Source: a virus. From it: a stretch of 32,130 nt of DNA. Positions 9,163 through 24,516 of this stretch are shown piece by piece; positions within the stretch are counted from its first letter, which is position 1; each line of letters opens with the position of its first letter. Made by a program: the position numbers and the translations under genes. The stretch spans positions 1 to 32,130 of the IMG/VR virus record IMGVR_UViG_3300046511_000118, one strand, 5' to 3'. The notes under the pieces were generated by a model, which worked only from the letters and a program-made list of their open reading frames with translations, ran no database searches and was not told the DNA's origin.

Positions 9163-9166
9163 AAAT

Positions 9167-12100
9167 ATGGCACGAGATAAAGGCGTCCCGCTGGTCATCG
9201 GCGCGAAAGGCGGCAAAGGCGGCGGAAGCGGCGCGATCGAAGATTCCGATACGCTCGCCAGCCGGGCCTATGCTCAGGTCCTGGACCTGATTTGCGAAGG
9301 CGAGGTCGAAGGGCTGGTCGGCGGAATGCAGGGCGTCTATTTGGACGGAACGCCGCTTCAAAACCCGGACGGGTCGTTCAATTTTTCCGGCGTTTCGTTC
9401 GCGTTCCAGCCGGGTTCGCAAGGCCAGAACTATATCGCCGGCTTTTCCGAAATCGACACGGAATACAGCGTCGGACTAGTCGTCCATCAATCGTCGCCGA
9501 TCGTCCGCACGATCACGAATACGGACGTCGACGCGGTCCGCGTCGTTATCGGCGTCCCGCAACTGACAAGCCAGGACGTTAAGACCGGCGACATTCACGG
9601 AACGTCTTTCGACGTGGCGATCGACGTCCAGACGGCCGGCGGCGGATACGTCCAGCGGCTATACGACACGGTTTCCGGAAAGACGTCGAACTATCAGCGC
9701 GCCTATCGGATCGAGCTATACGGCGCCGGTCCCTGGGATATCCGCGTTCGCCGGATCACGGCCGACAGCGTCGTTTCGGCGCTGACGAACGCCTTTAACT
9801 GGGCGACCTATACGGAAATCATCGACGCGAAACTGACCTATCCGAACAGCGCGATTGTCGCGCTTCGCATGGATAGCGCACAGTTCCAGTCGATTCCCCA
9901 GCGCGCCTATCGGATGCGCCTGTTACGCGTCCAGGTTCCGAGCAATTACGACCCGGTCACGCGCGCTTATTCGGGCGCCTGGGACGGGACGTTCAAAATC
10001 GCCTGGACCAACAATCCGGCATGGTGCTTTTACGACCTGTTGACCAACGAGCGTTACGGCCTGGGCGAATTCGTTTCCGCCGGCCAGGTCGACAAATGGG
10101 CGCTGTATCAGATCGGCCAGTATTGCGACGTCATGGTCCCGAACGGGTTCGGCACGCAGGAACCGCGCTTCGCGCTTAACTGCTATATCCAGAATTACGC
10201 CGATGCGTTTAAGGTCGTCCAGGACCTGGCGTCCTGTTTTCGCGGAATGCCATTTTGGACGACGGGCACGGTTACGGCGGTCCAGGACGCGCCGTCGTCG
10301 CCGGTCGCGCTATTCACGCAGGCGAACGTCTTAAACGGCGCGTTTAGCTATTCGGGAAGCAGTCTAAAAGCGCGACACACGGTCGCACTTGTTACCTGGT
10401 TCAATATGGACGACATGGCGCGTCCATATGTCGAATACGTCGAAGATACGGAAGGCATCGCGCGGTATGGCGTCATCCAGACGCAGGTAACGGCGTTCGG
10501 ATGCACTTCGCGGGGCCAGGCGCACCGCGTCGGGAAATGGCTCCTGTACAGCGAGCGGTCGGAAGCTGAAACGGTCACGTTCCGGACGGGCCTCGAGGGC
10601 GTCCCTGTGCGTCCCGGCGACGTTATCAAGGTTTCCGACGCCATGCGCGCCGGCCAAAGCCTGGGCGGCCGGATTTCGGCGTCTGACGGGCTAAACACGG
10701 TCACGATTGACCGGGACCTGGTCGACGTCAACAAGGCCGCCGTCAATCCGATCGGCGCGTCCATCAACATTGTTTCGATCGACGGCGCCGTCCGGACCGG
10801 AAGCATTACCGGCGTCAACGGCCGGAAACTGACGGTCGCGAGTAATCAGGGCCTGGCGAACATGCTGTCCGGCGTCCAGGCGCAAGCGCTTTGGGTCATC
10901 GAGACGAGCGGAATCGCCGCGCAACTATTCCGCGTCATCCAGGTAACGGAAGCGGACCGCGGCCAATACGACATAACGGCCGTCGCGCACAATCCGAGCA
11001 AATACGACGCGATCGAATACGGCCTGGCGCTCGAGGTCCGCGACATTTCCGACCTGTCGACGCGGCCGTCGGCGCCGACGTCCGTCCAGGTTTCGGAAAA
11101 CCTGTACCTGTACCAGTCGAACGTCTTTTCGCTGATGACGATTTCCTGGCCGTCCGTCATCGGCGCGACCGCGTACAAAGTCGGATACAGCAAAGACGGC
11201 GCCAACTGGGTTTTCGAAAACACGCCGGCGAACGAACTGGAAATCCGCATGGCGGCGCCGGGATCCTATGACGTCCGCGTATGGACGATCGGCGCTTCGC
11301 AGCTTACGTCATCGGCGTACGCCGAAACGGTCCAGTCGATCCTGGGGAAGTTTGCGCCGCCGGCGGACGTCCAGGGCCTGACGTTCGGGATCGACCAGAA
11401 CGCCGGCGCGAAGCTGGCCTGGGCGCCGAATACGGACGTCGACCTGTACGCGTACGAAGTCCGCAAGGCGACCAGCGGGACCGATTGGGCCAGCGCTACG
11501 TCGCTGGGTCAAATCAAGGCGACCGCCTTTACGATCGGCGTCCAGGGATGCGTCGGAACGTACCTGGTCAAAGCGATCGATACAAGCGGGAACTACAGCG
11601 TCAACGCGGCAACGGTCGCTGTAACTATGCCGGTCGCGCCGGCGCCGGTCGTCGCGGGCGTTTTCAGCGGTCCTAACTACAATCTGACCTGGAATCAGGT
11701 CTTAGGGAACCTGGCGACGGACCATTACGAGATCCGCACGGACCTGAATTTCGGCCAGACGGCCGGGCTTATCACGACCCAAAAAGGGACGTCCTATTCG
11801 GCGAAGGTCAACTGGTCCGGAACGGTCGTTTTCTACGTCGCCGCGGTCGACATTGGCGGGAACTACGGCGGCGCCGGCCAGGCGACGCTGGTCGTCAACG
11901 CGCCTATTCTGCCGGTCATCACCCAGCAGGTTATCGACAATAACGTTTTGCTTCGCTGGACCGCGGCGAATGCGACGCTACCGCTAGACCATTACATCGT
12001 CGCGCGCGGGACGACGTTCGCCGGCGCGACCGTGCTCGGGACGATTTCCGGGACGTTCGACGTCATTTTCGAAACGACGCCGGGAAGCTTTACATACTGG

Positions 12101-13324
12101 ATCGCAGGCGTCGATTCGGCGGGCAACCAGGGACCGGCGGCCAGCGTTACGGCGTTCGTCAATCAACCGCCGGACTATGTCTTGCGGTACAACTACGACG
12201 CATTTTTCGACGGGCTGATCGACGACTTTCGCGCCGGCGCAATCAATGCTGATTTCACCGTAAGCGGGGCCACGATGGCGGCCGGCGCCGGGATGACGCT
12301 GACCAGCACCGGCACGAATCCGCAACTGATCCGCACCTGGCAACTGATCGAGAATCACCCGAACGGATGCGAATATCCGATCGTCCGCGTCAAGCTGACG
12401 CGCGTCGCCGGATCCGGCTGGACCGGGAAGGCCTACTGGTCGACGGCCGGTCACGGATTCACGACTGGCTATTACCAGACGAACGCGACAAACCCGGCGA
12501 TCGGCGCGCAGGTCACTATAGATTGGGACATGCGCGCACCGACGGCCGGCGGCACGGACTACATGATGAACGCGCTGTCCGGGATCCGCCTGGACCTGGG
12601 CGCGACCGCGGCCGACGTCTTCAGAATCGACTATATCGAGCTGGTCCCGTTCCTGTCGACGAACGTCGTCGAGGACGTCGACAGGTCGCTGGTTATGCCG
12701 GTCAACACGACGGAAACATTCCAGCAGCATTTCGACAGTCACACCTGGGCGGCGCCGTCGAACCAGGTCGCCGCCGGCTATCCGATTTTCATCGAGCCGG
12801 GCCTGACGACGTCGACGTATGTCGAATACATCGATTACGGAACCGTTTTGCCGGCGACGCGCGTTTCGGTCACGCCGACGTATGTCGTCATCGACGGGGC
12901 GCCGTCGCTGTCCGTCACGATCGAAGTATCGACGGACGGCGTAACCTGGACGACGTACGCCAACACGACGGCCGTCTATGTCACCAATTTCCGTTACGCG
13001 CGATATACCGTCACAGTTACAGGCGCCGGTCACGATTTGTTGCGCCTGCAGGGCATCAATTACCGTTACGACGTCAAGCTGAAAAACGACGCCGGCACCG
13101 TCCAGGCGCTGTCGACAGATACGAACGGAACGCCGGTAACATTCGCCGTCGGATTTATCGCTGTAACATCGATCACGGTAACGGCGAACACGACGTCGCC
13201 AGTTTTCGCGGTTTATAATTTCGACGGTAGCAAACCAAATCCGACCGGTTTTACGGTCATGATTTTCGACAAAAACGGAAACCGCGTCGCCGGGCAAGTG
13301 TCCTGGTCCGCGAAGGGAGTTTAA
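9167..13324 (+). CDS. Tip attachment protein J (host specificity)
   Basis: This encodes 1385 residues from ATG 9167, four bases after the I stop. The N-terminal Gly-rich stretch (VIGAKGGKGGG) followed by DTLASRAYAQVLDLICEGEV is the hallmark of J-type tip proteins. The central tail-hub domains run to about residue 620. Four Fn3-like modules start near 633, 730, 825 and 912. From about 1001 a different beta-rich section, with a jelly-roll-like segment, makes the receptor-binding end. In lambda, J trimers form the tip and bind the outer-membrane receptor. The C-terminal part should determine host range and is the most likely to be exchanged between phages. Confidence 0.93.
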   Translation: MARDKGVPLVIGAKGGKGGGSGAIEDSDTLASRAYAQVLDLICEGEVEGLVGGMQGVYLDGTPLQNPDGSFNFSGVSFAFQPGSQGQNYIAGFSEIDTEYSVGLVVHQSSPIVRTITNTDVDAVRVVIGVPQLTSQDVKTGDIHGTSFDVAIDVQTAGGGYVQRLYDTVSGKTSNYQRAYRIELYGAGPWDIRVRRITADSVVSALTNAFNWATYTEIIDAKLTYPNSAIVALRMDSAQFQSIPQRAYRMRLLRVQVPSNYDPVTRAYSGAWDGTFKIAWTNNPAWCFYDLLTNERYGLGEFVSAGQVDKWALYQIGQYCDVMVPNGFGTQEPRFALNCYIQNYADAFKVVQDLASCFRGMPFWTTGTVTAVQDAPSSPVALFTQANVLNGAFSYSGSSLKARHTVALVTWFNMDDMARPYVEYVEDTEGIARYGVIQTQVTAFGCTSRGQAHRVGKWLLYSERSEAETVTFRTGLEGVPVRPGDVIKVSDAMRAGQSLGGRISASDGLNTVTIDRDLVDVNKAAVNPIGASINIVSIDGAVRTGSITGVNGRKLTVASNQGLANMLSGVQAQALWVIETSGIAAQLFRVIQVTEADRGQYDITAVAHNPSKYDAIEYGLALEVRDISDLSTRPSAPTSVQVSENLYLYQSNVFSLMTISWPSVIGATAYKVGYSKDGANWVFENTPANELEIRMAAPGSYDVRVWTIGASQLTSSAYAETVQSILGKFAPPADVQGLTFGIDQNAGAKLAWAPNTDVDLYAYEVRKATSGTDWASATSLGQIKATAFTIGVQGCVGTYLVKAIDTSGNYSVNAATVAVTMPVAPAPVVAGVFSGPNYNLTWNQVLGNLATDHYEIRTDLNFGQTAGLITTQKGTSYSAKVNWSGTVVFYVAAVDIGGNYGGAGQATLVVNAPILPVITQQVIDNNVLLRWTAANATLPLDHYIVARGTTFAGATVLGTISGTFDVIFETTPGSFTYWIAGVDSAGNQGPAASVTAFVNQPPDYVLRYNYDAFFDGLIDDFRAGAINADFTVSGATMAAGAGMTLTSTGTNPQLIRTWQLIENHPNGCEYPIVRVKLTRVAGSGWTGKAYWSTAGHGFTTGYYQTNATNPAIGAQVTIDWDMRAPTAGGTDYMMNALSGIRLDLGATAADVFRIDYIELVPFLSTNVVEDVDRSLVMPVNTTETFQQHFDSHTWAAPSNQVAAGYPIFIEPGLTTSTYVEYIDYGTVLPATRVSVTPTYVVIDGAPSLSVTIEVSTDGVTWTTYANTTAVYVTNFRYARYTVTVTGAGHDLLRLQGINYRYDVKLKNDAGTVQALSTDTNGTPVTFAVGFIAVTSITVTANTTSPVFAVYNFDGSKPNPTGFTVMIFDKNGNRVAGQVSWSAKGV

Positions 13325-13328
13325 AGCT

Positions 13329-14573
13329 ATGGCGGCGGATTGGAGCCAACCAACAATAGGGACGCCGTACGCGACATTGCTCGCCGCATTGCTCGCGCGC
13401 GACGTCGACAGCGCGACGATGTATCAGTCCGGCGGGACGGCGACAAACGTCCCGGATAAAGCGGTTCGCTGGAACCCGGCGACGAATTCATTCGAGCAAT
13501 ACAGCCTGGCCGGCGGGACCTGGTCGCAAATGATGGCAAACGGCCTGGCCGTTCCGTCCGTCACGGTCGCGAACGCGCCGACGACCGCGGCGCATGCGAC
13601 GCGGAAAGACTACGTCGACGGCCAGGTTACGGCCGTTTCGACCGTCGCGAATGCGGCGCTTCCGAGGTCCGGCGGCACGATGAACGGGTCGCTTTACGTG
13701 CAGTCCGGCGGCACGACAAACGGATTTGAAAACGGTAACGGCGACGCGGCAAGTTACGGAACCTATAACTTCGCGATGCGCGGCTGGAATGGTATGGGGA
13801 TGCGATCGTTTGATAATACGATCAATGGTTATTACGATTTCCGCGCCGGAAAATGGGACACGAAGGGCGGATTTTACGTTAATGGCGTTCGCACCTGGGA
13901 TTACACGAATTTTAATCCGGCGAATTATATCCCTACCTGGGGCGGATCGATCACCGGCCAGCTTACTATGGCGAATTCGCAGAGTCTGGCGCTACAGGGA
14001 ACTGGATACACCGGATATATGCGAGGCGACCAAGCCGGCCTGGTCGGATTTATCAACCAGGCGCAAAACGCGTGGAATTTCCAGATTACGGACGGCGGGA
14101 ACGTCAACGCGCGCGGCGTCGTATATGCCGGCGGAAGCGGCGGCGCCTATCTGAATACCGACGGGAATATTTGGGGCACCGCATGGGGCGGCTGGCTGAG
14201 TAATTCAATAGCGGCAAAGGCGAACGCCTGGCATTCTGGCTGGGGTAATTCCGGGTATGTCGTAACGGATACGTCGAATATCGCGAAAATCAATTGGGAC
14301 GGGTCGAATACGCTTCTGTACATCGATTCGACTTACCAGGGCGCATTGATTAACCATAACAATTATGGAAGTTGGTGCGCACCGCGATCGATTATGGACC
14401 AGGGCGGCGTCGGGTCTTATGCGATTCGCGGGACTGTAAGTTCATACGACACGCCGAACAAAGCGTCGGATAGCGGCTGGTCGGCTTATGCCGGCGGCTG
14501 GCGCGCACAAGACCAGGTCAACGTCGGCGGGAATAACACTCAATACGTAAGACTTTGGCAGAGGACGTCATGA
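13329..14573 (+). CDS. Tail fibre protein
   Basis: This encodes 414 residues with an RBS GGAG at 13316. The N-terminal about 90 residues would attach it to the tail; a segment TTAAHATRKDYVDGQ followed by RSGGTMNGSLYVQSGG is the usual phage fibre repeat that forms trimeric shaft. The rest is Gly/Asn/Trp/Tyr-rich beta structure with many short NGxxY-like turns and a final receptor-binding tip. No intramolecular chaperone cleavage motif is evident. The downstream gene, in ATGA overlap, is its probable assembly chaperone. Confidence 0.88.
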   Translation: MAADWSQPTIGTPYATLLAALLARDVDSATMYQSGGTATNVPDKAVRWNPATNSFEQYSLAGGTWSQMMANGLAVPSVTVANAPTTAAHATRKDYVDGQVTAVSTVANAALPRSGGTMNGSLYVQSGGTTNGFENGNGDAASYGTYNFAMRGWNGMGMRSFDNTINGYYDFRAGKWDTKGGFYVNGVRTWDYTNFNPANYIPTWGGSITGQLTMANSQSLALQGTGYTGYMRGDQAGLVGFINQAQNAWNFQITDGGNVNARGVVYAGGSGGAYLNTDGNIWGTAWGGWLSNSIAAKANAWHSGWGNSGYVVTDTSNIAKINWDGSNTLLYIDSTYQGALINHNNYGSWCAPRSIMDQGGVGSYAIRGTVSSYDTPNKASDSGWSAYAGGWRAQDQVNVGGNNTQYVRLWQRTS

Positions 14574-15124
14574 TTACCGTACCAACACAGGCAGAAATCG
14601 CCGCGGCCGAAGCACTGAGCAAAGCCGCGTCCGAAGCGGTCGCGGCCGTTCCGGCCGGACCCGCCGTCGCGCCCGCGGTCGACCAACCGGCCGCGATCGA
14701 GGCGAAGGCGCCGGCGAAGCCGTTTGAAATCGGCGTCGTCACTAATCCGCGCTGGGCCGACACGGCGCAAACCGCGATTATCTGTACCGTCACGTTTCCG
14801 AATCACCCGATGGGGTACACAGAGCCGCACCAGTTCCTGGCCTGGCCGGGCGACGTCGAAGCGCACGGCCGCGAACTATTCGCGCGCTGCAAGGCTGGCG
14901 AATTCGGCACCGTCGCGCCGTATGTCGTCGACCTGGTCGCGCTGGACGCGCAGATGCGACACGATCGCGACATGCTTTTGCGGCAAACCGACTGGTCGCA
15001 ATTGCCGGACGTCGGCGAAGCGCGCCGGGCCGCATACGCTGGCTATCGCCAGGCGCTTCGCGACTTGCCAGCGACGGCCGGCTGGCCGACGTCGATCGTC
15101 TGGCCGGACCTGCCGAAAGTCTAG
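14570..15124 (+). CDS. Tail fibre assembly chaperone (Phage_tail_APC type)
   Basis: This encodes 184 residues from ATG 14570 in ATGA overlap with the fibre stop; GAGG lies just upstream. The first 60 residues are Ala/Pro-rich. The end contains RHDRDMLLRQTDWSQLPD, then a YAGYRQALRDLP segment and a final WPTSIVWPDLP, the signature of the tail assembly chaperone family that follows fibre genes in many phages and helps the fibre fold or trimerise. It is the last gene of the structural block; a terminator follows 52 nt later. Confidence 0.85.
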   Translation: MITVPTQAEIAAAEALSKAASEAVAAVPAGPAVAPAVDQPAAIEAKAPAKPFEIGVVTNPRWADTAQTAIICTVTFPNHPMGYTEPHQFLAWPGDVEAHGRELFARCKAGEFGTVAPYVVDLVALDAQMRHDRDMLLRQTDWSQLPDVGEARRAAYAGYRQALRDLPATAGWPTSIVWPDLPKV

Positions 15125-15176
15125 CCGGCGCGCGCGGCGCACTTCGCGCAGCGAACAAGCTATCCAGACGAGAACG

Positions 15177-15218
15177 AAAAATCCCGGACCGCATGTCGAC
15201 GCGGTTCCGGGATTTTTT
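15177..15218 (+). terminator. Rho-independent terminator ending the tail operon
   Basis: AAAATCCCGGA (15177-15188 region) pairs with TCCGGGATTTT (15206-15217), with an inner CCGC/GCGG extension (15189-15192 with 15201-15204) and T15213-15218. The A run on the left arm means it could also act on the opposite strand. The rest of the 15125-15333 gap shows no gene. Confidence 0.88.
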
Positions 15219-15305
15219 ATTGGTCCGCCGTCGCCGAACGACAACAGCAATCCAGAGGGACGAAACACCGCCGGCATTTTGTAAATTATGCGTGCTAACA
15301 TCGCG

Positions 15306-15322
15306 TTTGTAATTTCTACAAA
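15306..15322. promoter_or_regulatory. Short inverted repeat before the lysis genes
   Basis: TTTGTA (15306-15311) and TACAAA (15317-15322) form an inverted repeat with a 5-nt spacer, 11 nt upstream of the first lysis gene in an AT-rich patch. It could be an operator or small RNA hairpin; I find no convincing -35/-10 pair around it. Confidence 0.3.
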
Positions 15323-15333
15323 GGCCGCATGCC

Positions 15334-15555
15334 ATGCCGGATAAAGAAAACGTCGTCGAACACGCTGTCGCATTCGCATTGCTTCGCCAGGAAGTCGCCG
15401 CGCTGACGGAAGCGCACAGGAAAACGGACGAGCAAATCCAGGGCCTTCTGGACGCCTGGAACGCGTCGAAATGGGTCGTCCGATCCGTCGCCGCGATCGC
15501 GGGTTTCGCCGCCACTGTGGGCGGCATTTACGCCGCCTGGCGGGGCATCAAATGA
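15334..15555 (+). CDS. Holin-like small membrane protein (coiled coil plus one TM)
   Basis: This encodes 73 residues. Residues about 1-45 are a charged, heptad-like helix (LLRQEVAALTEAHRKTDEQI). Residues about 47-70 form a single hydrophobic span (VVRSVAAIAGFAATVGGIYAAW) rich in Ala/Gly, with a basic end. This layout resembles XhlA-type lysis accessory proteins and short holins. It is joined to the endolysin by an ATGA overlap, supporting a lysis function. A role as antiholin to the 3-TM holin downstream is possible. Note that the hydrophobic segment was read directly; topology is inferred. Confidence 0.65.
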   Translation: MPDKENVVEHAVAFALLRQEVAALTEAHRKTDEQIQGLLDAWNASKWVVRSVAAIAGFAATVGGIYAAWRGIK

Positions 15556-16067
15556 CGACGTTTTCCGATGCATTCGCGATCGTCGTCGGCGTCGAAGGCG
15601 GGTTCCAGAACGACCCGCGGGACAATGGCAACTGGACCGGCGGAAAGGTCAACGTCGGCGCCTGCAAAGGCACGAAATACGGTATCAGCGCGGCGGCATT
15701 TCCGAACGAAGATATCGCCGGCCTGACGCTCGAGCGCGCGCAAGCGCTCGCGAAGACGCGTTACTGGGATCCGCTGAAGCTGGACCAGGTCGACCCGCGG
15801 ATCGCGTTCCAGGCGTTCGACACTGCATACAACGGCGGATACACCGCCAAATGGCTACAGCAAGCGGCCGGGATGACGGGATCGCAGGTCGACGGAAACA
15901 TTGGCCCGGCTACGCTGGCGGCGCTTAACGCATTGGATCCGGACAAAGTAATCATGCGGTTCGACGCGTCCCGGCTGGAATACCTGACGGACTGTCAGAC
16001 CTGGCCGACCTATTCGCGCGGCTGGACCAAGCGCGTCGCCGCAAACCTTCGCCGCGCAGCGGCATAA
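15552..16067 (+). CDS. Endolysin, GH108 family with peptidoglycan-binding domain
   Basis: This encodes 171 residues from ATG 15552 (ATGA overlap). Its N-terminus carries the GH108 signature with catalytic Glu15 in VVGVEGGFQNDPRDNGN, followed by a Gly-rich TKYGIS segment. Residues about 85-165 (AFDTAYNGG, then QVDGNIGPATLAALNAL) are the predicted peptidoglycan-binding type 3 region. The family cuts the glycan strand like a muramidase. There is no signal peptide, so release depends on a holin. The Phe after EGG is common in the family; no essential residue seems missing. Confidence 0.92.
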   Translation: MTTFSDAFAIVVGVEGGFQNDPRDNGNWTGGKVNVGACKGTKYGISAAAFPNEDIAGLTLERAQALAKTRYWDPLKLDQVDPRIAFQAFDTAYNGGYTAKWLQQAAGMTGSQVDGNIGPATLAALNALDPDKVIMRFDASRLEYLTDCQTWPTYSRGWTKRVAANLRRAAA

Positions 16068-16082
16068 CAACAGGGGAACACC

Positions 16083-16661
16083 ATGTCGGGAATTCAGACC
16101 GCGATATCGACCGTCGCGAAGTTTGCGCCGACCGTCGCAAGCATGCTGGGCGGGCCGCTGGCCGGGACCGCCATTTCGGCGCTGGAATCGCTCCTGGGCC
16201 TGTCGCCGGCGCCTGGCGCGTCGACCGACGACCGGGCGAGCGCAGCGGCGGCGGCCGTCGCCGGCGCGACGCCGGACCAGGTCCTGGCGCTGAAGAAAGC
16301 GGACTACGATTTCCAGGTCCAAATGGCGACAATCGCCGCCGGCGTCACGAACGCGCAAGTCGCCGCGGACGGCGACCAGGTCGACCAGGTCAATCAAACC
16401 ATGCGCGCGGAGTCCGCGGCCGGTAAGGGCGCGACCTGGCGCGAGGCGTGCGGCTGGGTCCTGGCGATCGCGTCGTTTGTGTCGGTCCTGGGCGTCATCG
16501 GCCTGTTTTACGTCGCGCTGGTCCTAAAGGATATGACCGCGATAAACATGGTCCCGGTCCTGACTATGTCGATCGTCGGCGTCCTGACTGTACCGGGCGC
16601 GGCCGTCGGGATCACGGCCTGGCATCAAGGCGTAAGGGACCGGATCGCGGCCGGCCAATAA
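16083..16661 (+). CDS. Holin, 3-TM superfamily (GTA_holin_3TM-like)
   Basis: This encodes 192 residues with a good RBS (AGGGGAA at 16071). The first half is an Ala-rich amphipathic region with a first hydrophobic patch (SMLGGPLAGTAISALESLLG); the second half has WREACGWVLAIASFVSVLG and two further hydrophobic spans ending VPGAAVGITAW. The pattern, including the W-R-(E/P)-x-x-x-W start of the TM region, is that of the three-TM holin family found in phages and gene transfer agents. It would control the time of endolysin release. No spanin pair was recognised nearby. Confidence 0.8.
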   Translation: MSGIQTAISTVAKFAPTVASMLGGPLAGTAISALESLLGLSPAPGASTDDRASAAAAAVAGATPDQVLALKKADYDFQVQMATIAAGVTNAQVAADGDQVDQVNQTMRAESAAGKGATWREACGWVLAIASFVSVLGVIGLFYVALVLKDMTAINMVPVLTMSIVGVLTVPGAAVGITAWHQGVRDRIAAGQ

Positions 16662-16667
16662 CGCGGA

Positions 16668-16700
16668 AACCCTTGCCTGGCAAGGGTTCGCCGTTTGTTC
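16668..16700 (+). terminator. Probable terminator after the holin gene
   Basis: AACCCTTGC (16668-16676) and GCAAGGGTT (16680-16688) pair perfectly with a 3-nt loop, 7 nt after the holin stop. The T tract is interrupted (GTTTGTTC), so termination is probably partial, letting some transcription reach the Acb2-like gene. Confidence 0.55.
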
Positions 16701-16723
16701 GATAACTTCTATTACGTCAAGTC

Positions 16724-17011
16724 ATGCAAAACCAGCACGAAAAAATCAAGGGTTATCGCGACCTGTCACAGCACGAAATCGACCTGATGAACGCTATCAA
16801 AACGGCCGGCGAAAAGCTGGACCAGCTTTGCGGCCTGGTCGACGATCACCTGGCGGCGCAATTCACCGCGGCGCACCAGGCGAAAGGCGCCGGCGAAATT
16901 GACCGTCTGTCGTCCGCGGCGCCGTCGTCCTGGCTGAATGACGCGCGGCGCGACCTGCAGGTCGGCGTTATGAAGCTGACGCGCGCGGTCGCACAGCCGA
17001 CGACGTTCTAA
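16724..17011 (+). CDS. acb2: Anti-CBASS/anti-Thoeris sponge protein, Acb2/Tad1 family
   Basis: This encodes 95 residues, the typical Acb2 length. The N-terminus HEKIKGYRDLSQHEIDLMNA and C-terminal helix ending LTRAVAQPTTF are hallmarks of the Acb2/Tad1 hairpin family. Tyr11 and Lys26, which I recall as key cyclic-dinucleotide-binding residues of phage PaMx33 Acb2, sit at the same positions. Acb2 proteins form compact hexamers that trap cyclic di- and trinucleotides made by CBASS cyclases, so Cap effectors stay off. The gene lies between lysis genes and a converging operon, with only a weak RBS visible. No catalytic activity is expected. Signal specificity cannot be read from sequence. Confidence 0.88.
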   Translation: MQNQHEKIKGYRDLSQHEIDLMNAIKTAGEKLDQLCGLVDDHLAAQFTAAHQAKGAGEIDRLSSAAPSSWLNDARRDLQVGVMKLTRAVAQPTTF

Positions 17012-17029
17012 GTCCCTGCCCTACCCTGC

Positions 17030-17056
17030 AAAAACCCGGCCGCGGCCGGGTTTTTT
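17030..17056. terminator. Bidirectional palindromic terminator
   Basis: A perfect palindrome (ACCCGGCCG then CGGCCGGGT, 17034-17051) is flanked by A5 on the left and T6 on the right, giving an intrinsic terminator on both strands. It ends the rightward lysis/Acb2 transcription and the leftward 17056-20321 operon; the last base of the T run is the first base of the DUF4031 stop codon. Confidence 0.9.
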
Positions 17057-17400
17057 CATCGCTGCGCGGCGATCGCGGCGCGCCTTCGCGCCATTTCCGC
17101 GACCAACCATTCGACCGCGTCGTCCGGATTCCCTAGTTCGCCCGTTACTCGCCGGCGCGCATTCATCGCGCCGGCCTGGCGCATAGTGATTTCGACGGCG
17201 CCGGCATCGACCGCCAGCGCGCGCTTACTGAGCGCGATATCGTAATGGCTGCCGCTCGTCTTCTGCGGATCCTGCCACCAGCGGCGCGCGACGCCGATCC
17301 GGCCGGCCATTTCGTGCAATTCCGCGTCGGTATCGGCCAGCATATGACACATCACCATGCGCCCAAACCGGGCGCGCATGTCGTCGACATAGACTGTCAT
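17056..17400 (-). CDS. DUF4031 protein
   Basis: This encodes 114 residues from ATG 17400 (minus), not the longer frame extending to 17649. MTVYVDDMRARFGRMVMCHM at the start, then RWWQDPQKTSGSHYDIALSK, is the DUF4031 signature. The acidic YVDD and SHYDIAL motifs recall nuclease- or hydrolase-like centres, but no function is established. The start overlaps the zinc-finger gene stop in an ATGA unit. It is last in the leftward operon. The short in-frame extension upstream would read antisense over that gene. Confidence 0.88.
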   Translation of the reverse strand: MTVYVDDMRARFGRMVMCHMLADTDAELHEMAGRIGVARRWWQDPQKTSGSHYDIALSKRALAVDAGAVEITMRQAGAMNARRRVTGELGNPDDAVEWLVAEMARRRAAIAAQR

Positions 17401-17633
17401 CGTTTCGCGAACAGCCTGGAACGAGTGTCCGCGCGTTCCTGGCAACAGACGCAGCGCGTCGCGCGCATGGCGACCCGGACGTCCGGTAACGCGTCGTCGC
17501 AGTCTTCGCAGTCCGTTACAGCCGGGCCAGCATCGGCCGCGCGCTTCGCTGCCTCGAGCGCTCGAGCGCGTAACAGCGTTTCGATTTCGCGCGATGCGAG
17601 TTCGTTCGCCAGGTCGATTGTGTCCGCGATCAC
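17397..17633 (-). CDS. DksA/TraR-type zinc-finger protein
   Basis: This encodes 78 residues from GTG 17633 (GTGA overlap with the upstream gene stop). Cys42-x2-Cys45 (DCEDC) and Cys61-x2-Cys64 (RCVCCQE) form the four-cysteine TraR/DksA zinc finger, preceded by a helix with Arg/Ala/Glu pattern (MIADTIDLANELASREIE). The family binds the RNA polymerase secondary channel; short phage forms mimic DksA plus ppGpp to retune host promoters. The acidic tip residues of DksA are absent, as in TraR-like phage proteins. The GTG start is deduced from overlap and family length. Confidence 0.85.
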   Translation of the reverse strand: MIADTIDLANELASREIETLLRARALEAAKRAADAGPAVTDCEDCDDALPDVRVAMRATRCVCCQERADTRSRLFAKR

Positions 17634-18124
17634 GACAGCACCCCAGCATGGCCGGCCGGCACCGCCAGCGACGTAATACCGCGCCAGCGGAACGCCGGGA
17701 CCCCTACTTCTACATTCGCCGTCAATCCGCCGTCAATGAACCAGCGCTGACCGTCCCAATAGTCCGGTTCGGCCTGGCATTCCAGCGCGGGATATTCGCG
17801 CACGTAATGACCCGGATACGCCGGCGCGACGTCGGCGTCGAACCATTCTGTAAAGACCGCTTGCCAGGCGTCGCCGGGTTCCGTGCCGAAGCTGGGCGCA
17901 TACGCCGGCACGTCGCCGCGGAAACGCCATTGCTGGCCGTCCCAATACCGGCGCACGATCGCCGCGGCGCCGGCATACCTGGCGAAGTAATAGCCGGGCA
18001 CCGGCGGCGGCGTCTGGACCGGGAAAAACGGCGTCACGTCGACGCCGGCGACCGGCGCGGCGGTCGCCAGCAATTCCGCGAACGAGCGGACCAACAGCGC
18101 GGAACGGATGGCGGAATCGATCAT
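17630..18124 (-). CDS. Hypothetical protein with duplicated YWDGQxW unit
   Basis: This encodes 164 residues from ATG 18124, with GGAG 11 nt upstream on the minus strand. Two units share PGYYFARY...YWDGQQWRFRG (about residues 47-75) and PGHYVREY...YWDGQRWFIDG (about 104-132), separated by about 57 residues, an internal duplication of a small beta motif with Trp and Gly like those of some beta-propeller or SH3-like units. I do not recognise a family. It is translationally coupled at both ends (ATGA and GTGA overlaps) in the recombination operon. Confidence 0.75.
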   Translation of the reverse strand: MIDSAIRSALLVRSFAELLATAAPVAGVDVTPFFPVQTPPPVPGYYFARYAGAAAIVRRYWDGQQWRFRGDVPAYAPSFGTEPGDAWQAVFTEWFDADVAPAYPGHYVREYPALECQAEPDYWDGQRWFIDGGLTANVEVGVPAFRWRGITSLAVPAGHAGVLS

Positions 18125-18315
18125 CTTAAATTTTCTCCAACATGGAAGCCGCGGCACTTGCGGCACGAATACGGATGGACGGCGGCGTCGCGATGGCGAC
18201 GGATATTCTTTGCGGCGAAGGCGGCGGCGGACCATTGTGTAAAGCGCTTTTTGCCTTCGCATGATTCGGCGCGTCCGACGGTCCGACTGGCGTTTGGATT
18301 GAGGGACGCGCGCAT
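18121..18315 (-). CDS. Small Cys/His protein, probable zinc-binding
   Basis: This encodes 64 residues from ATG 18315, two bases after the ATPase stop; a longer frame to 18453 would overlap that gene deeply. It has one N-terminal Cys (CEGKKRF), a helix WSAAAFAAKNIRRHRDAA and a C-terminal Cys-x2-Cys-x3-His (SCRKCRGFHVG). This is the layout of small phage zinc-ribbon proteins of the C...YxCxxCxxxH type. It probably binds nucleic acid, but that is inference. The stop overlaps the next start in ATGA. Confidence 0.75.
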   Translation of the reverse strand: MRASLNPNASRTVGRAESCEGKKRFTQWSAAAFAAKNIRRHRDAAVHPYSCRKCRGFHVGENLR

Positions 18316-18317
18316 GG

Positions 18318-19301
18318 CTAGACCGGGCTGTCGTCTGTCGCCGCGGCGACTTGCGCCTGAAGCGCGGCGACGCCGGCCGGCGCGTCGTCGGACTTGCTCG
18401 AGGCGCGCGCCTGGTCGAATGCTCGAGCGCTCGCGCGCACTGTCTCGAGCCAATCGGAACCCAGCGCTTTCTGGACTTTCGCCGGCACCTTTGCAATGCA
18501 GCTATCGATATGGGCCAGTCCGCCTTCAGCGTTCGACCGGAGTCGGTTCCGGAAGCGTTCGACGTCCGGATCCAGTTCGATTCCGCCGGCGACCCATTGG
18601 CGAAGCGCGAAACCCATGTCCGGAGTTAGATACCCTTTTTGCGGGCCTTTCTCGCCGAAAATCGGAATCAGGTCTTTCGGGCATTTGATGACGTCGCGCG
18701 CGCGGCCGGCGTCCTGCAGCAACATGGACGCCGTCGCTTCAAACATGAAATTCTTTTCCTGGATAGGCTGGATCCCAAGCGAAACGGGTTTTTTCGGGTC
18801 CGTGAAATCCGTTTTTTCGCGCGCGCGCACGCAGAAAATAATATGCATGTCGCACTGAAGCGCGGCATTCATGAACGACTTGTGAAGGCGCTTCGCTTTT
18901 TTCCAGTCGGCGAGGCGTCCCGACGTATCAGCGGCGATTTCCTCACAACCGCCCGTCCCTTCCCATTCGTGCGTCGCGCTGTCGACGACCAGCGCTTCAA
19001 CGCCGGCCGCCTGGAATTCGAGAATCGCCGCCTTGTAACGGTCCGGCGAAAACGGCGGTTCCAGGTCGCCAATTAGAAACGGGACGTCCGTCGCCGGCGA
19101 CGTCGCTTTCAGTTCATCGGAATACAGCGAGCCGCGGCCGTTTTCGGTATCCAGGAACCCTACTTTCGCCGCGTCGAATCCGGCCAGACCGTACGCCAGC
19201 AGCAACGCCGACAAGGTTTTCCCGTCGCCAGTCTGGCCGGCCAGGACGATCACCAGGCGCGCGCCGGCGCGCTGGGCTTTTCTGATTTTAAGGACGCTCA
19301 T
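18318..19301 (-). CDS. AAA family ATPase (AAA_24/Sak4-like recombination ATPase)
   Basis: This encodes 327 residues from ATG 19301; a TTG at 19322 is possible but less likely. Walker A is GQTGDGKT (residues 22-29) and a Walker B-like strand is ALVVDSATHEW. Later segments (CDMHIIFCVRAREK and the linker ending GEKGPQKGYLT) fit the RecA-like core of phage single-strand annealing/recombination ATPases. Next to a RecE-like exonuclease, a recombination function is the natural reading: the nuclease makes single strands, this ATPase loads or anneals them with the phage SSB. No DNA-binding data can be read. Confidence 0.85.
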   Translation of the reverse strand: MSVLKIRKAQRAGARLVIVLAGQTGDGKTLSALLLAYGLAGFDAAKVGFLDTENGRGSLYSDELKATSPATDVPFLIGDLEPPFSPDRYKAAILEFQAAGVEALVVDSATHEWEGTGGCEEIAADTSGRLADWKKAKRLHKSFMNAALQCDMHIIFCVRAREKTDFTDPKKPVSLGIQPIQEKNFMFEATASMLLQDAGRARDVIKCPKDLIPIFGEKGPQKGYLTPDMGFALRQWVAGGIELDPDVERFRNRLRSNAEGGLAHIDSCIAKVPAKVQKALGSDWLETVRASARAFDQARASSKSDDAPAGVAALQAQVAAATDDSPV

Positions 19302-19312
19302 TTTGTTCTCGA

Positions 19313-19329
19313 GGGCCAGCAATTGGCCC
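19313..19329 (-). other. Intercistronic hairpin before the ATPase gene
   Basis: On the minus strand GGGCCA pairs with TGGCCC around a 5-nt loop, ending 11 nt before the ATPase start. It sits in the 54-nt gap between nuclease and ATPase genes and could tune their relative translation or protect the RNA end. The gap holds no gene. Confidence 0.4.
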
Positions 19330-19355
19330 GGCTGGTTGTTTTTTGACGCTGGCGC

Positions 19356-20321
19356 TTAGAACACCGGCACGACGGGCGATTCGTCCGCGGCAAGCGCGGC
19401 GGCCATTCCGATTTCCGCGAATGCCGGCATTTGCAACGGCTGGATATTGTCCCCATAGCCGGGCCAACGCTCGCGGACAACACAGTCGCGCAGGACGCGC
19501 AACAGGCGCTTATATTCGGCGCGGCCGGCCGCCAGCATGTCTTCAGCGGCGTAATAGAAACCGGACGCGTACGGCGGCGTTTTCTCCCATGCGGCGAACA
19601 CGAACGGCAATTCCTGTCCGGTTACGGCTTTGACGCCGTCGACGTAAAACGCCGCGGCGACCCAGTAACGGTAATTCCAGACGGCGCGGCCGAATCCCGC
19701 CGGCGACGCGTCAATGGTCGATTTGACGTCAACGATCGCGCCAGGAATAAGCCAGTCCGGACGGACGCGGCAAAGGATCCCGGTTTCCGGGTCTTCCCAA
19801 TAGAACGATTGTTCCGCGACGCCGCCGTTAAGGAACAGCGTCCGCGCCGACGGATGCGAGCGAAGCGACTTCGCGATGGACAGACAGGTATCCATGTCTG
19901 CGTCCTGCAGCGCGACGCGGTCCGCGACTGCGGCGGCGTACGCGTCGTCGTAAAACACGACGTCGGCGCCGGCGGCGATCAATGACGCCTTAAGTTCCGA
20001 TTTAGTTCCCGAAACTTTCAAGCCATGCGCCTTTGCGGCCGCCTTATATTCTTCTGACGATTGCAACGCATTGCCAAGGGTAAAAGCGGACGGCGCGCGG
20101 ACATACTCGGCGGCGAATTTTTCCGGTTCCAGAATCGCGGCATGGATCGCGGTTCCTAGCGTGAAATGCGATTTTTCGCGACGCGCCTGTCGATTTTTTG
20201 CGACATACGCCGCCTCAAAATGCAACGGGGATTGCGCCAGCACCTTAAGCATGCTCGAGCTAACGCCAGGGCCGGAATGGTAAGCCTCGTTTGAGAGGTC
20301 GGTATATACGCCTGTCCGCAT
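19356..20321 (-). CDS. RecE-like PD-(D/E)XK exonuclease with a SAP-like insert
   Basis: This encodes 321 residues from ATG 20321; the longer minus frame to 20390 is not needed. The GTAIHAAILEPEKF box with His60 and the RPDW...IVDVKST core (Asp189, Asp198-x-Lys200) form the metal-binding PD-(D/E)XK centre of exodeoxyribonuclease VIII/DUF3799 nucleases. Between the first box and the core, residues about 92-118 (KAHGLKVSGTKSELKASL) look like a SAP helix-extension-helix DNA-binding motif. It is the first gene of the leftward operon and should resect linear duplex DNA for the adjacent ATPase. A Cas4-like role is a less likely alternative. Confidence 0.85.
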   Translation of the reverse strand: MRTGVYTDLSNEAYHSGPGVSSSMLKVLAQSPLHFEAAYVAKNRQARREKSHFTLGTAIHAAILEPEKFAAEYVRAPSAFTLGNALQSSEEYKAAAKAHGLKVSGTKSELKASLIAAGADVVFYDDAYAAAVADRVALQDADMDTCLSIAKSLRSHPSARTLFLNGGVAEQSFYWEDPETGILCRVRPDWLIPGAIVDVKSTIDASPAGFGRAVWNYRYWVAAAFYVDGVKAVTGQELPFVFAAWEKTPPYASGFYYAAEDMLAAGRAEYKRLLRVLRDCVVRERWPGYGDNIQPLQMPAFAEIGMAAALAADESPVVPVF

Positions 20322-20362
20322 GTCAAACCTGTAAAAGATAACGGCATGTCGCCGCGGAACGA

Positions 20363-20392
20363 ATATTAATCTGAATGTACGTTTGCACACAA
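20363..20392 (-). promoter_or_regulatory. Candidate leftward promoter of the recombination operon
   Basis: On the minus strand, TTGTGT (complement of 20387-20392) lies 17-18 nt upstream of TTAATA/TAATAT (complement of 20363-20369), about 42 nt before the nuclease ATG. The match is weak, but TTGTGTGC recurs as the -35 of another leftward gene (30268-30275). Confidence 0.3.
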
Positions 20393-20409
20393 TAAAAATT
20401 TGTTACACT
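20383..20409 (+). promoter_or_regulatory. Candidate rightward promoter of the replication operon
   Basis: TTGCAC (20383-20388) precedes TACACT (20404-20409) by a short 15-nt spacer; TG at 20401-20402 makes an extended -10 (TGTTACACT). It is in an AT-rich intergenic island between divergent operons, and it partly overlaps the leftward candidate, which would make the pair mutually regulated. Confidence 0.4.
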
Positions 20410-20440
20410 TCAAAACATTATTAAACAGGTGCGGTAAAAA

Positions 20441-20752
20441 ATGCCAAACACAGGCGAATCTTACTATTCTAAGCTGGCGAGTATGGCGGCGAACGCGCGC
20501 CTTTCTATCGCCGGGCTTTGTCGCGAAGCTGGCGTCGCACCGGCGACGGCGACGCGCTGGAAAAGCGGCGTCGCGGCGCCGACAATGCGGATATGGGACA
20601 AGCTGGAAAGAAGCGCGAAGGCGGCGGCCGATCGTCGTAAGTGTCCGCAATGTCACAGCGAAGACACGGAACCCGTCGCGACGAACGCGCACCCGAAAAT
20701 GCGCGCGTGTTGCGCCTGTTTTACGTGCTATCTCGAGGGCGAAAAGGAATGA
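20441..20752 (+). CDS. HTH protein with C-terminal zinc ribbon (probable regulator)
   Basis: This encodes 103 residues. Residues about 22-42 (SIAGLCREAGVAPATATRW) are a clear XRE-type helix-turn-helix, followed by a linker and Cys68-x2-Cys71 with Cys90, 91, 93 and 96, a zinc-ribbon-like end (CPQCH...CCACFTC). A fusion of HTH and zinc ribbon in one small protein is unusual. It is first in the rightward replication operon, facing the leftward recombination operon, the usual place for a switch regulator. The stop overlaps the helicase start in ATGA. Its DNA target is unknown. Confidence 0.8.
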   Translation: MPNTGESYYSKLASMAANARLSIAGLCREAGVAPATATRWKSGVAAPTMRIWDKLERSAKAAADRRKCPQCHSEDTEPVATNAHPKMRACCACFTCYLEGEKE

Positions 20753-22272
20753 AGCTTCGCCCGTATCAGGACGACATGGTCGGCGGAATGCGCCAGGCAT
20801 ACGCGCGCCGATTGCGCGCCGTCCTGGCCGTTTTGCCTACCGGCGGCGGAAAGACATTCACATTCGTTTTCACGGCAAAAGGCGCCGTCGCGCGCGGGTC
20901 GCGCGTTTGCATCCTGGTCCATCGCCGGGAATTGCTGAAACAGGCGTCGCGGTCGCTGGACGCGATGGACGTCCAGCACGGACTTATCGCGCCGGGCCGG
21001 CGACAGACGCAGGACGCCGTCCAGGTCGCCAGCGTCCAGACGCTTATTCGTCGGATCCGCAAATACCAGGACGCCGGCCTGGCGCTCCCGCCGTCGCTGC
21101 AATTCGACCTAATCGTTATCGACGAAGCGCACCACGCGACCGCCGGATCTTGGCGCCAGGTCCTGGACACCTATCCGGCGGCAAAGGTCCTGGGCGTCAC
21201 GGCGACGCCGACCCGGTCGGATGGCCAGGGCCTGGGCGCCGACGGCGGCGGCATATTCGATGAAATCGTTATTGGCCCGCAAATCCAGGAACTGATCGAC
21301 GACGGATACCTGGTCGACGCGCGCGTCTATTCGCCGCCTGAAATCGCCGACACGACCGGCTTAAAAGTCGGATCCAACGGGGATTTCCGGCCGGACGATT
21401 TGGCCCGGCTGTACAACGCGCCGACGGTAACGGGCGACGCGATCGCGCATTACCGGAAGCTGGCGCCGCGCCAGCCGGCCGTCTATTTTTGCGCCGACGT
21501 CAAAGCGGCAAAGGACCTGGCCGAAGAATTCAACGCGGCCGGATTCCGCTTTGTCGCGCTGGACGGCGGCATGGATGACGCGGACCGCGACGAAGGTTTG
21601 CGCGCGATGGGCGCCGGCGAAATCGACGGGATAACGTCCTGTGACATCGTTTCCGAAGGAACCGACATTCCGCGCCTGACGGTCGCCGGACTACTGCGGA
21701 AAACTGAATCGCTGGGCCTGTACCTGCAGCAAATCGGCCGCGCGCTGCGGCCTGTCTACGCGCCTGGGTTCGACCTGTCGACGCGGGAAGGTCGACTGGC
21801 GGCGATCGCGGCCAGCGACAAGCCTTACGCGATCGTCCTGGACCACTGCGGCAACGTGAAACGGCACGGCATGCCGCAAGCGTTCCGCGAATGGTCGCTG
21901 GACGCTGAGGTCGAGAGCAAGGCCGGCGGCAAAAGCGACAAGGTCCCGCCGGTCATCAAATGCGAAAAGTGTTTCATCGATCGACCAGGCGGCAAAGTCT
22001 GTCCGGTATGTGGCCACGAAAACAAAGTCGAAGCGCGAACGATCATCGTCGCGGACGGCGAATTGGCCGAAGTCGATCCAGAGGAAATGCGCGAACGCGA
22101 GGCAATAAAGACGCGCGAGCGGGCCGCCTGTCGGACCATCGGCGACTTTTCCCGGTTCGCCAAAAAGTACGGATATAAACCCGGCTGGGCGTTCATGCAA
22201 ATGAGAATGAGAAGTAAGCCGGCGCGTAATCTCGAGGTCATCAATGAAGACAACACAGAAGCAGCTTTTTAA
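20749..22272 (+). CDS. SF2 DEAD/DEAH helicase with C-terminal zinc ribbon
   Basis: This encodes 507 residues from ATG 20749 (ATGA); the longer frame to 20641 lies inside the HTH gene. Motifs in order: LRPYQ near the start, Walker A PTGGGKT (30-36), DEAH (125-128), TATPTR (near 150), SEGTDIPRL and QIGRALRP (about 328-334). After the RecA-like pair, Cys405-x2-Cys408 and Cys418-x2-Cys421 (CPVCGHE) form a zinc ribbon. It resembles UvrW/RadD-like phage helicases that remodel forks or branched DNA. It is likely ATP-driven; its polarity cannot be told from sequence. Confidence 0.92.
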   Translation: MKLRPYQDDMVGGMRQAYARRLRAVLAVLPTGGGKTFTFVFTAKGAVARGSRVCILVHRRELLKQASRSLDAMDVQHGLIAPGRRQTQDAVQVASVQTLIRRIRKYQDAGLALPPSLQFDLIVIDEAHHATAGSWRQVLDTYPAAKVLGVTATPTRSDGQGLGADGGGIFDEIVIGPQIQELIDDGYLVDARVYSPPEIADTTGLKVGSNGDFRPDDLARLYNAPTVTGDAIAHYRKLAPRQPAVYFCADVKAAKDLAEEFNAAGFRFVALDGGMDDADRDEGLRAMGAGEIDGITSCDIVSEGTDIPRLTVAGLLRKTESLGLYLQQIGRALRPVYAPGFDLSTREGRLAAIAASDKPYAIVLDHCGNVKRHGMPQAFREWSLDAEVESKAGGKSDKVPPVIKCEKCFIDRPGGKVCPVCGHENKVEARTIIVADGELAEVDPEEMREREAIKTRERAACRTIGDFSRFAKKYGYKPGWAFMQMRMRSKPARNLEVINEDNTEAAF

Positions 22273-22585
22273 CGGCCGCTTTGTCGACAACGACAGCGAA
22301 GCCTGGCGCGAACAATGCGAAGCGCAAACCGTTTTGAATTACGCGACGCGCGCGCAACGCTGGGACCATATTCGCCGCGTCGAGGAACGTCGCGGCGAGG
22401 CGGCATGCATGCGGTTACAGGCGGTCATGGTAAATATGATGACGACCGAACGACAGCGCAATGGCATAATTCAAGCCTTAATGCAGTATCGCGACGCGAC
22501 ATACTGGCGCAAATTCCGCGAAGTATTGACGTCCGACGACTTCAACAATCCGACGCCGGCGACGGAAAAATCGCTGGCACTCTAA
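22244..22585 (+). CDS. Hypothetical protein, DUF7696-like
   Basis: This encodes 113 residues starting 29 nt inside the helicase gene; a GAGG at 22233 can act as RBS. It is Arg/Glu-rich and helical, with a core EAWREQCEAQTVLNY and a following RRVEERRGEAACMRLQ helix, which resembles small phage proteins annotated DUF7696 that accompany replication genes. Assigned from memory of pattern only. No catalytic motif is seen. It precedes SSB by 14 nt. Confidence 0.75.
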   Translation: MKTTQKQLFNGRFVDNDSEAWREQCEAQTVLNYATRAQRWDHIRRVEERRGEAACMRLQAVMVNMMTTERQRNGIIQALMQYRDATYWRKFREVLTSDDFNNPTPATEKSLAL

Positions 22586-22599
22586 GGAATTAAATTCAC

Positions 22600-23067
22600 A
22601 TGGCAAGCGTCAACAAAGTAATTCTGGTCGGCAACCTGGGCGCCGATCCCGAAACGCGTTACCTTCCGTCCGGCGACGCCGTCGCAAACATTCGCATTGC
22701 GACAACTGAGCGTTACAAAGAGAAGGAAAGCGGCGACGTAAAAGAGATCACCGAATGGCACCGGATCGCGTTTTTCGGGAAGCTCGCGGAGATCGCCGGT
22801 AAGTATCTGAAGAAGGGATCGTCCGTCTATATCGAAGGCCGGATCCGGACCCGCAAATGGCAAGCGCAGGACGGCACGGACCGTTATTCGACGGAAATTA
22901 TTGCCGATCAAATGCAAATGCTGGGCGGCAAACCGGCGGGCGACAACGACGAAAGGCGCGAACGTTCCGCGCCGGCCGATCGCGGCGAGCAGCGCGGCGC
23001 CAGCGGCAAACCGTCGGCGCCGGCCGGCGAGGGGTTCGACCAAATGGACGACGACATTCCCTTCTAA
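22600..23067 (+). CDS. ssb: Single-stranded DNA-binding protein
   Basis: This encodes 155 residues with RBS AAGGA. The N-terminal OB fold opens with the classical [20 protein letters not shown] and includes [20 protein letters not shown] and [17 protein letters not shown]. After about residue 110 comes a Gly/Ala/Pro-rich linker ending with the acidic tip DDDIPF used by bacterial SSBs to recruit partners such as the helicase, nuclease or primase. A phage-encoded SSB of bacterial type, probably tetrameric, in the replication operon. Confidence 0.96.
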
Positions 23068-23083
23068 CGAAAGGTATTTGTAA

Positions 23084-23638
23084 ATGCACAGCACCCGCCG
23101 ACACAATTCCGACCGGTTTCCGTCCGTCATCGCGCTATGCGGTCGCGCTGGCGCCGGTAAATCGGCCGCGGCCGAATTGCTCGCGCTGCATGGATACAAG
23201 ACGGTCAAGTTTGCAACGCCGCTTAAAAACATGCTCCGCGCGCTGGGCCTGACGGAACGCCAGATCGAAGGCGACCAGAAAGAACAGCCGGCGGAATTGC
23301 TGGGCGGGAAAACGCCGCGCCAGGCAATGCAAACACTCGGGACGGAATGGGGCCGCGGCCTGATCGGCGACGACGTATGGATCCGCGCCTGGTCGCTCGA
23401 GGTCGAACGCATTGTGTCGCGCGGCGGTCGCGTCGTCGTCGACGACTGCCGGTTCGAAAATGAACTGGCGGTCGTCCTGCAGTACGGCCGCGCCGTGCGG
23501 ATCAATCGTCCCGGCCTGTATATCGAGTCGACGCACCAGTCGGAAACCGCGCTGGACGCCGTCGACATGCCGCAAGTCTGGAACACCGGGACGCCTGTCG
23601 ACCTGATGGACTGCATTCTGCGGACGGTCACGCAATGA
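23084..23638 (+). CDS. Deoxynucleoside monophosphate kinase
   Basis: This encodes 184 residues. The P-loop GRAGAGKS (20-27) is followed by FATPLKNMLRALGL and a second half containing VVVDDCRFENEL, the T4 gp1-type/phage dNMP kinase pattern. Such enzymes phosphorylate dNMPs, sometimes modified ones, to dNDPs with ATP, feeding phage DNA synthesis. RBS AAAGG lies upstream. The TGA stop overlaps the next ATG. A modified-base substrate is possible but no hydroxymethylase or synthase is visible here. Confidence 0.88.
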   Translation: MHSTRRHNSDRFPSVIALCGRAGAGKSAAAELLALHGYKTVKFATPLKNMLRALGLTERQIEGDQKEQPAELLGGKTPRQAMQTLGTEWGRGLIGDDVWIRAWSLEVERIVSRGGRVVVDDCRFENELAVVLQYGRAVRINRPGLYIESTHQSETALDAVDMPQVWNTGTPVDLMDCILRTVTQ

Positions 23639-23721
23639 AGCCGACATTTTGGCCGTATGCCGCGATCGGCTTTTCCGTCCTGGCGATGGACGTCCTGTTT
23701 TTCCTTCACATCGCGCCATGA
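23635..23721 (+). CDS. 28-residue single-TM peptide
   Basis: The peptide runs from ATG 23635 (ATGA overlap with the kinase stop) to TGA 23719-23721 (ATGA overlap with the nuclease start). It is nearly all hydrophobic: after MKPTFWPY comes a span AAIGFSVLAMDVLFFLHIAP. The two overlaps make it part of a translationally coupled chain, so it is very probably made. No family is known to me; a small membrane peptide could alter membrane potential, superinfection or lysis timing (speculation). Confidence 0.6.
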   Translation: MKPTFWPYAAIGFSVLAMDVLFFLHIAP

Positions 23722-24065: not shown

Positions 24066-24069
24066 ACGC

Positions 24070-24279
24070 ATGTCCGTTACGACACAACTCGGCGACCTGA
24101 CGGCGACTTATGACGGGCGCGCGGTCGAAATAGACGGGCCAGGAACGGCCGTTATGACAATGGACCTGGCCGGGAACGTTACGGCGGCGACGCTCGAGCC
24201 GGACGACCCGGCATATCCGCGCATGGTCACGTACGGATTACGCGTCCTGGGATGGAACATCGTCCCGCCGTTCCTGTAA
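24070..24279 (+). CDS. Hypothetical small beta-rich protein
   Basis: This encodes 69 residues starting 4 nt after the nuclease stop. The sequence reads as short beta strands (QLGDLTATYDGRAVEIDGPG, VTYGLRVLGWNIVPPF) with many Gly and Asp turns and no charge cluster or Cys. No family recognised. It ends the kinase-nuclease gene chain; a CCTGT-AA-ACAGG palindrome spans its stop codon. Codon use matches neighbours. Confidence 0.65.
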   Translation: MSVTTQLGDLTATYDGRAVEIDGPGTAVMTMDLAGNVTAATLEPDDPAYPRMVTYGLRVLGWNIVPPFL

Positions 24280-24438: not shown

Positions 24439-24516
24439 ATGATCCAATCGCCAACGTCGGTACAGCCTTTTACAAAAGTAAAAGCAACGCCGAAACAATT
24501 CCAACAGGGGAAAGCA

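Follow-up and report, generated by a model that had tools for sequence, protein, structure and literature searches.

Locus and Family Identity

The window, by which we mean the whole stretch of 32,130 nucleotides analysed here (positions 1 to 32,130 of the virus record IMGVR_UViG_3300046511_000118 of IMG/VR), carries a gene for a 95-aa protein between an endolysin gene and a converging operon (Table 1). This locus raises the question whether the protein is a sponge for cyclic nucleotides and, if so, which of these signals it would bind. The reading frame starts with an ATG at 16724 and its stop codon ends at 17011. The six in-frame codons between this ATG and the preceding stop, read on the identical gene of a second record (L001, 33,701 bases), contain no further start. 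L001 agrees with the window at 10,280 of 10,285 positions and its acb2 shows no differences at all, though the record is too close to the window for this identity to show selection. Four of the five differences cluster within 22 bases (18765-18786) inside the gene for a Sak4-like ATPase, possibly as a result of recombination or of an assembly join.

Matches to PF24729, phrog_717, the PDB entry of p26 and phage records show that acb2 is not a chance frame. The product scored 44.8 bits (E 1.4e-11) against the Pfam model PF24729 (Acb2_Tad1_hairpin), which has a curated cut-off of 27, and matched phrog_717 of PHROGs, annotated as unknown function, at E 9.3e-23. A sequence search of the PDB returned the crystallised Acb2 of phage PaP2 (p26) over the whole length of the protein (residues 1-95, E 8.6e-24), with 47.4% identity by tblastn and thus about 53% divergence, while Vs.4 of T4 was a weak match by sequence (E 0.42). 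Of 50,697 phage records, 223 matched at E ≤ 0.01 and 619, weak matches among them, at E ≤ 10; the defence-gene library PADLOC gave no match for acb2. Acb2 has also been described in a Microbacterium phage (PMC13348362). Both the start motif (NQHxxIKGYR) and the end motif (RAVAQPxxF) of the family are present. From the family model, the p26 alignment, the predicted fold and the pocket residues described below, we conclude that the acb2 product is a member of the Acb2-type family of cyclic-nucleotide sponges.

The closest known proteins are PaP2 Acb2 (PDB 8H2J, 8H2X, 8H39, 8IXZ) and its PaMx33 relatives. The window protein and p26 align over their full length at 47% identity, share the predicted fold, differ in length by no more than two residues and both have Tyr11, Lys26 and the arginine at p26 position 85 (Arg87 in the window), whereas the loop between the helices is two residues longer in the window protein, and Ser69 and Arg76 replace R67 and T74. 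Identity to the copy of Vs.4 from RB14 is 33%.

Table 1. Features of the acb2 locus (window coordinates)
Feature	Position	Strand	Evidence or remark
Endolysin, glycosyl hydrolase 108 and peptidoglycan-binding domain	15552..16067	+	PF05838 E 1.1e-16, PF09374 E 6.6e-9, phrog_315
192-aa protein with two hydrophobic stretches	16083..16661	+	phrog_1544 E 1.2e-20, function unknown
Hairpin in the gap between membrane-protein gene and acb2	16668..16688	+	10-nt perfect arms, no T-run
acb2, 95-aa Acb2-family cyclic-nucleotide sponge	16724..17011	+	PF24729, p26 match, AlphaFold2 fold
Codon of Tyr11, base-stacking residue (T4 Vs.4 Y8)	16754..16756	+	Tyr in 272/273 family sequences
Codon of Lys26 (T4 Vs.4 K23, cGAMP contact)	16799..16801	+	Lys in 271/273
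Codon of Ser69, replaces p26 Arg67	16928..16930	+	Arg in 238/273 family sequences
Codon of Arg76, replaces p26 Thr74	16949..16951	+	Thr in 232/273; co-varies with position 67
Codon of Arg87 (T4 Vs.4 R79, cGAMP contact; p26 R85)	16982..16984	+	Arg in 272/273
Symmetric (two-way) intrinsic terminator between converging transcripts	17027..17058	.	16-nt arms, 94% complementary
DUF4031 ORF, last gene of converging operon	17056..17649	-	PF13223 E 3.8e-25, residues 86-164

Predicted Fold

An AlphaFold2 model of the monomer, for which 96 natural sequences were aligned, reached a pLDDT of 90.9 and a pTM of 0.75. The chain is predicted to fold as an N-terminal tail followed by a helical hairpin, with helices at residues 16-52, 56-65 and 67-90 and no beta-sheet; residues 1-10 are poorly defined (mean pLDDT 55). 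Foldseek placed the Acb2 structures 8h2j and 8h2x at ranks 1-6 of the PDB (E about 1e-7, TMq 0.83-0.85, TMt 0.85-0.93) and Vs.4 (7uq2) at ranks 7-9. VIA-align gave Z scores of 11.4 for Acb2 and 9.4 for Vs.4, compared with 8.1 for the highest-scoring unrelated chain. This program warns that helical hairpins with Z below about 13 may share only a common arrangement, so the fold alone is no proof of family, which the sequence match does provide.

The Pfam hairpin model is common to Acb2 and Tad1, and the protein could on that ground be a Tad1-type sponge, which binds gcADPR and blocks Thoeris. Tad1 has a four-strand antiparallel N-terminal sheet ahead of its helices (PMC12043709), whereas in the model of the window protein only 15 residues, in coil conformation, precede the first helix. 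As modelled, this coil would leave no space for a Tad1 beta-sheet, and gcADPR binding or anti-Thoeris activity would not be expected. The nine top structure matches are Acb2 and Vs.4; Tad1 is absent from the structures listed, which in itself proves nothing. A Tad1-type sponge is extremely improbable, and we rejected it on architecture.

Dinucleotide Pocket

In Vs.4 of T4, cGAMP is contacted by Y8, F82, H11, K23 and R79, the hexamer interface involves L29, A66, A73 and A77, and the exchange Y8A lowers cGAMP binding (PMC10097602). These residues were mapped through a family alignment that contains the RB14 copy of Vs.4. Y8, K23 and R79 correspond to Tyr11, Lys26 and Arg87 and the helix cap T12 to Ser15, which adds to the likeness to Vs.4 (PDB 7UQ2). 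Two contacts are not kept, H11 being replaced by Leu14 and F82 by Ala90. Leucine and alanine are nevertheless the family norm at these positions, with 153 of 153 and 148 of 153 rows (152 distinct sequences, as p26 is counted twice, once as L018), and p26 has them too. At the interface, L29, A66, A73 and A77 map to Leu32, Ala74, Gly81 and Leu85; the small residues A66 and A73 thus have counterparts in Ala74 and Gly81, and the positions of A77 and F33 hold Leu85 and Cys36. By homology the protein would form a hexamer, which in Acb2 has three dinucleotide sites, and would hold cyclic dinucleotides between paired protomers by means of Tyr11, Lys26 and Arg87.

The sequence-only reading that preceded this analysis had assigned the gene to an 'Acb2/Tad1 family', on the basis of the start and end motifs and of Tyr11 and Lys26 as binding residues, and had proposed a structure prediction as a check. 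The motifs are there, Tyr11 and Lys26 align with Y11 and K26 of p26 and are kept almost throughout the family (Table 1), and the prediction yielded no fold unlike the Acb2 hairpin but ranked Acb2 structures first. Family model, alignment, fold and pocket thus uphold the Acb2 half of the name; the Tad1 half is not supported, as the model shows no N-terminal sheet.

The Arg67/Thr74 Pair

The gene adds a member to a known family, and it is ordinary save for the replacement of a usually conserved pair of residues outside the main pocket, a feature that the sequence-only reading did not contain. In p26 numbering, which is used from here on for the family, these are R67 and T74. We take R67 to be the key residue of the trinucleotide site of Acb2; Cao et al. 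are said to have reported in Mol Cell in 2024 that it serves cyclic trinucleotides. The literature that we searched, which did not include Cao et al. 2024, gave no mention of Acb2 together with R67.

The frequency of this replacement was determined in family sequences from homologue searches, each of which used the best 80 loci (80 of 553, 107, 497, 534 and 239). A first sample, for which the window protein and A1 served as queries, contained 150 distinct sequences (151 rows, as p26 was included twice, again as L018), and the complete set contained 273, the window included. Cut or truncated sequences were left out (L028 and L159 from both sets, L258 and L331 from the set of 273). R67 was missing in 19 of the 150 sequences of the first sample, namely in 17 of the 76 that came from virus records and in 2 of the 74 that came from bacterial genomes. 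It was missing in 35 of the 273, which overstates the frequency of its loss since the later queries were chosen among sequences lacking R67.

Loss of R67 is associated with loss of T74. In the complete set T74 was also missing in 26 of the 35 sequences without R67 vs 15 of the 238 with it, and in the first sample in 14 of 19 vs 8 of 131 (Fisher p 1.4e-10, a value that counts one row twice). Among 79 representatives below 60% identity, none of the other column pairs, 351 in all with 67/74, was coupled as strongly as 67/74 (Fisher p 2.6e-9), and the coupling persisted among 29 representatives below 50% identity (p 0.001). On a tree of the first sample the R67 label needs at least 12 changes, four of them forced by well-supported branches. 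A tree-based sign test of the coupling, for which supported branches gave five independent pairs (three in the first sample), was not significant. Throughout the same 273 sequences the dinucleotide contacts are near-invariant. The RB14 copy of Vs.4 has Asp at position 67 and keeps Thr at position 74.

If Arg67 serves the trinucleotide site, the window protein has kept its dinucleotide site and has a changed trinucleotide site. It may then bind dinucleotides normally and, through Ser69 and Arg76, bind trinucleotides (cA3, cAAG) poorly or differently, which we hold to be plausible without being probable and which would refine the explanation as an Acb2 sponge rather than oppose it. The absence of both family-typical residues, the strength of the coupling and the constancy of the dinucleotide contacts point in this direction. 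Against it, the role of R67 in trinucleotide binding is presumed and the sign test stayed below significance on its five pairs. Moreover, Arg76 lies on the same helix as Ser69, seven residues or two helical turns away, and could take over the job of Arg67; Arg or Lys is found at position 74 in 13 of the 35 sequences without R67 vs 3 of the other 238. The di- and trinucleotide pockets are described as independent and homologues as differing in spectrum (PMC12043709), and the natural variant T68M of a T4-like Acb2, which matches T74 of p26, is described in a figure legend as lowering affinity (PMC12657230). With the 67/74 site altered to Ser69/Arg76, there is less certainty than for PaP2 Acb2 that the window protein binds cyclic trinucleotides.

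Genomic Setting and Expression

Tail genes lie upstream of the genes for the endolysin, the start of which was inferred from an ATGA overlap, and the 192-aa protein, which gave no Pfam match at E 0.1 and is perhaps holin-like. The hairpin that follows (fold z -2.28 for 16655-16724) would be a doubtful or partial terminator. Beyond acb2, the symmetric terminator has a fold z of -3.19 on the plus strand and -1.39 on the minus strand; the consensus scan, which requires a T-run downstream of the stem, did not list it, as here the T-run pairs within the stem. The converging minus-strand operon encodes the DUF4031 protein, the Sak4-like AAA ATPase and exonuclease VIII. The true start of the DUF4031 ORF is probably internal. 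A cysteine-rich ORF of 78 aa (17397-17633, minus strand) overlaps the start of this ORF, weakly matches a DksA/TraR zinc finger (E 0.079) and is perhaps a separate small zinc-finger gene.

Relatives of acb2 occupy diverse positions. A survey with a crude ORF picker covered 96 of 172 entries, one of which is the window. Among the 71 same-strand upstream neighbours, DNA-binding protein phrog_379 was the top family (7) and the Rz-like spanin phrog_13 the commonest lysis family (6 of 71), while other spanin families, possibly the same genes as phrog_13, were found 5, 5, 3 and 3 times (25 of 167 families listed). The 68 same-strand downstream neighbours were led by head-tail adaptors (4), HNH endonucleases (3) and terminase small subunits (3; 25 of 166 families listed). 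In annotated phages, acb2 is flanked by head genes in JBD67 and AV002, comes after tail genes and the gene for a DNA adenine methylase in VP882, lies among replication genes in Strzyga and is found four genes beyond an Rz-like gene in MR7. In PaP2, acb2 comes after orf27 and is convergent with the capsid gene, in contrast to the window acb2, which comes after lysis genes. Since relatives adjoin spanins in some phages and head or replication genes in others, placement beside lysis genes recurs without defining the family; as a family rule it was rejected on the survey and the annotated phages.

A promoter dedicated to acb2 was rejected as well, as a scan for the sigma-70 consensus on the plus strand of 15000-19500 gave no promoter-like site. 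The 34-nt leader (16690-16723) has no Shine-Dalgarno (SD) sequence, and its SD pairing energy is +1.2 kcal/mol (median -6.0), which ranks second from the weak end among 152 homologues. The leader is AT-rich, with 41% GC vs about 62% overall (GC is no higher in 3.2% of window stretches), and in the computed fold its last 25 bases do not pair. Taken together, the missing promoter site, the weak SD and the AT-rich leader make read-through of the late operon with an SD-poor start likelier than a dedicated unit. The order of genes and signals given by the sequence-only reading, with acb2 beyond a partial terminator and against a converging operon, was confirmed, while its suggestion that acb2 has an expression level of its own that matters was not borne out, since late-operon read-through would suffice.

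The weak SD, the preceding hairpin and the lack of a promoter-like site could also imply that the sponge is weakly expressed or decaying and contributes little. Loss of acb2 can indeed be favoured, as loss-of-function acb2 mutants of T4 escape Panoptes (PMC12657218). Yet the frame is intact and near-invariant residues are kept despite the divergence from PaP2, and the AT-rich leader with its unpaired end can support SD-less initiation; the identical gene in L001 adds little, given how close that record is. We therefore regard a weak or decaying sponge as unlikely.

Megablast of window positions 9001-26000 against the 50,697 phage records gave no match, while single-protein matches exist, for example of the Sak4-like ATPase to Achromobacter phage Mano (57.6%). 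Past the primase gene there is a gene for a minor tail or neck-type protein (30653-31360, plus strand; phrog_1924), and the ORFs scanned in the window included neither a terminase nor a capsid gene; the record probably represents part of a larger, permuted genome.

Proposed Function

Very probably, the acb2 product acts as an Acb2 sponge that is made late, assembles into a hexamer and binds dinucleotide signals of CBASS before lysis. The acb2 gene stands at the end of the tail-lysis operon and would be expressed late, probably by read-through past the weak hairpin. Signals such as 3'3'-cGAMP would be bound without being cut, and the CBASS effector would not be activated before lysis. By sequestering cyclic dinucleotides the protein should thus shield the phage from CBASS. 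The points against this proposal are the H11 and F82 contacts, the A77 and F33 interface positions, the exchange of T74 for Arg76 and the weak ribosome-binding site. In a host with Panoptes, sequestering nucleotides would trigger defence (PMC12657218, PMC12657230).

Tentatively, and with more doubt than conviction, we suggest that the window protein represents an unrecognised group of Acb2 proteins in which Arg67 and Thr74 are lost and the trinucleotide site is switched off or retuned, with the dinucleotide site untouched. In about a third of this proposed group the residue at position 74, two turns along the helix, is basic. If this is true, the retuning perhaps matches the local CBASS signal or avoids decoy-nucleotide systems such as Panoptes. 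The carriers of Acb2 gain an uncharacterised phage lineage, as judged by the megablast comparison. The R67/T74 signature splits the Acb2 family in two, and a comparison of di- and trinucleotide binding between both parts could show whether phages retune one site independently of the other.
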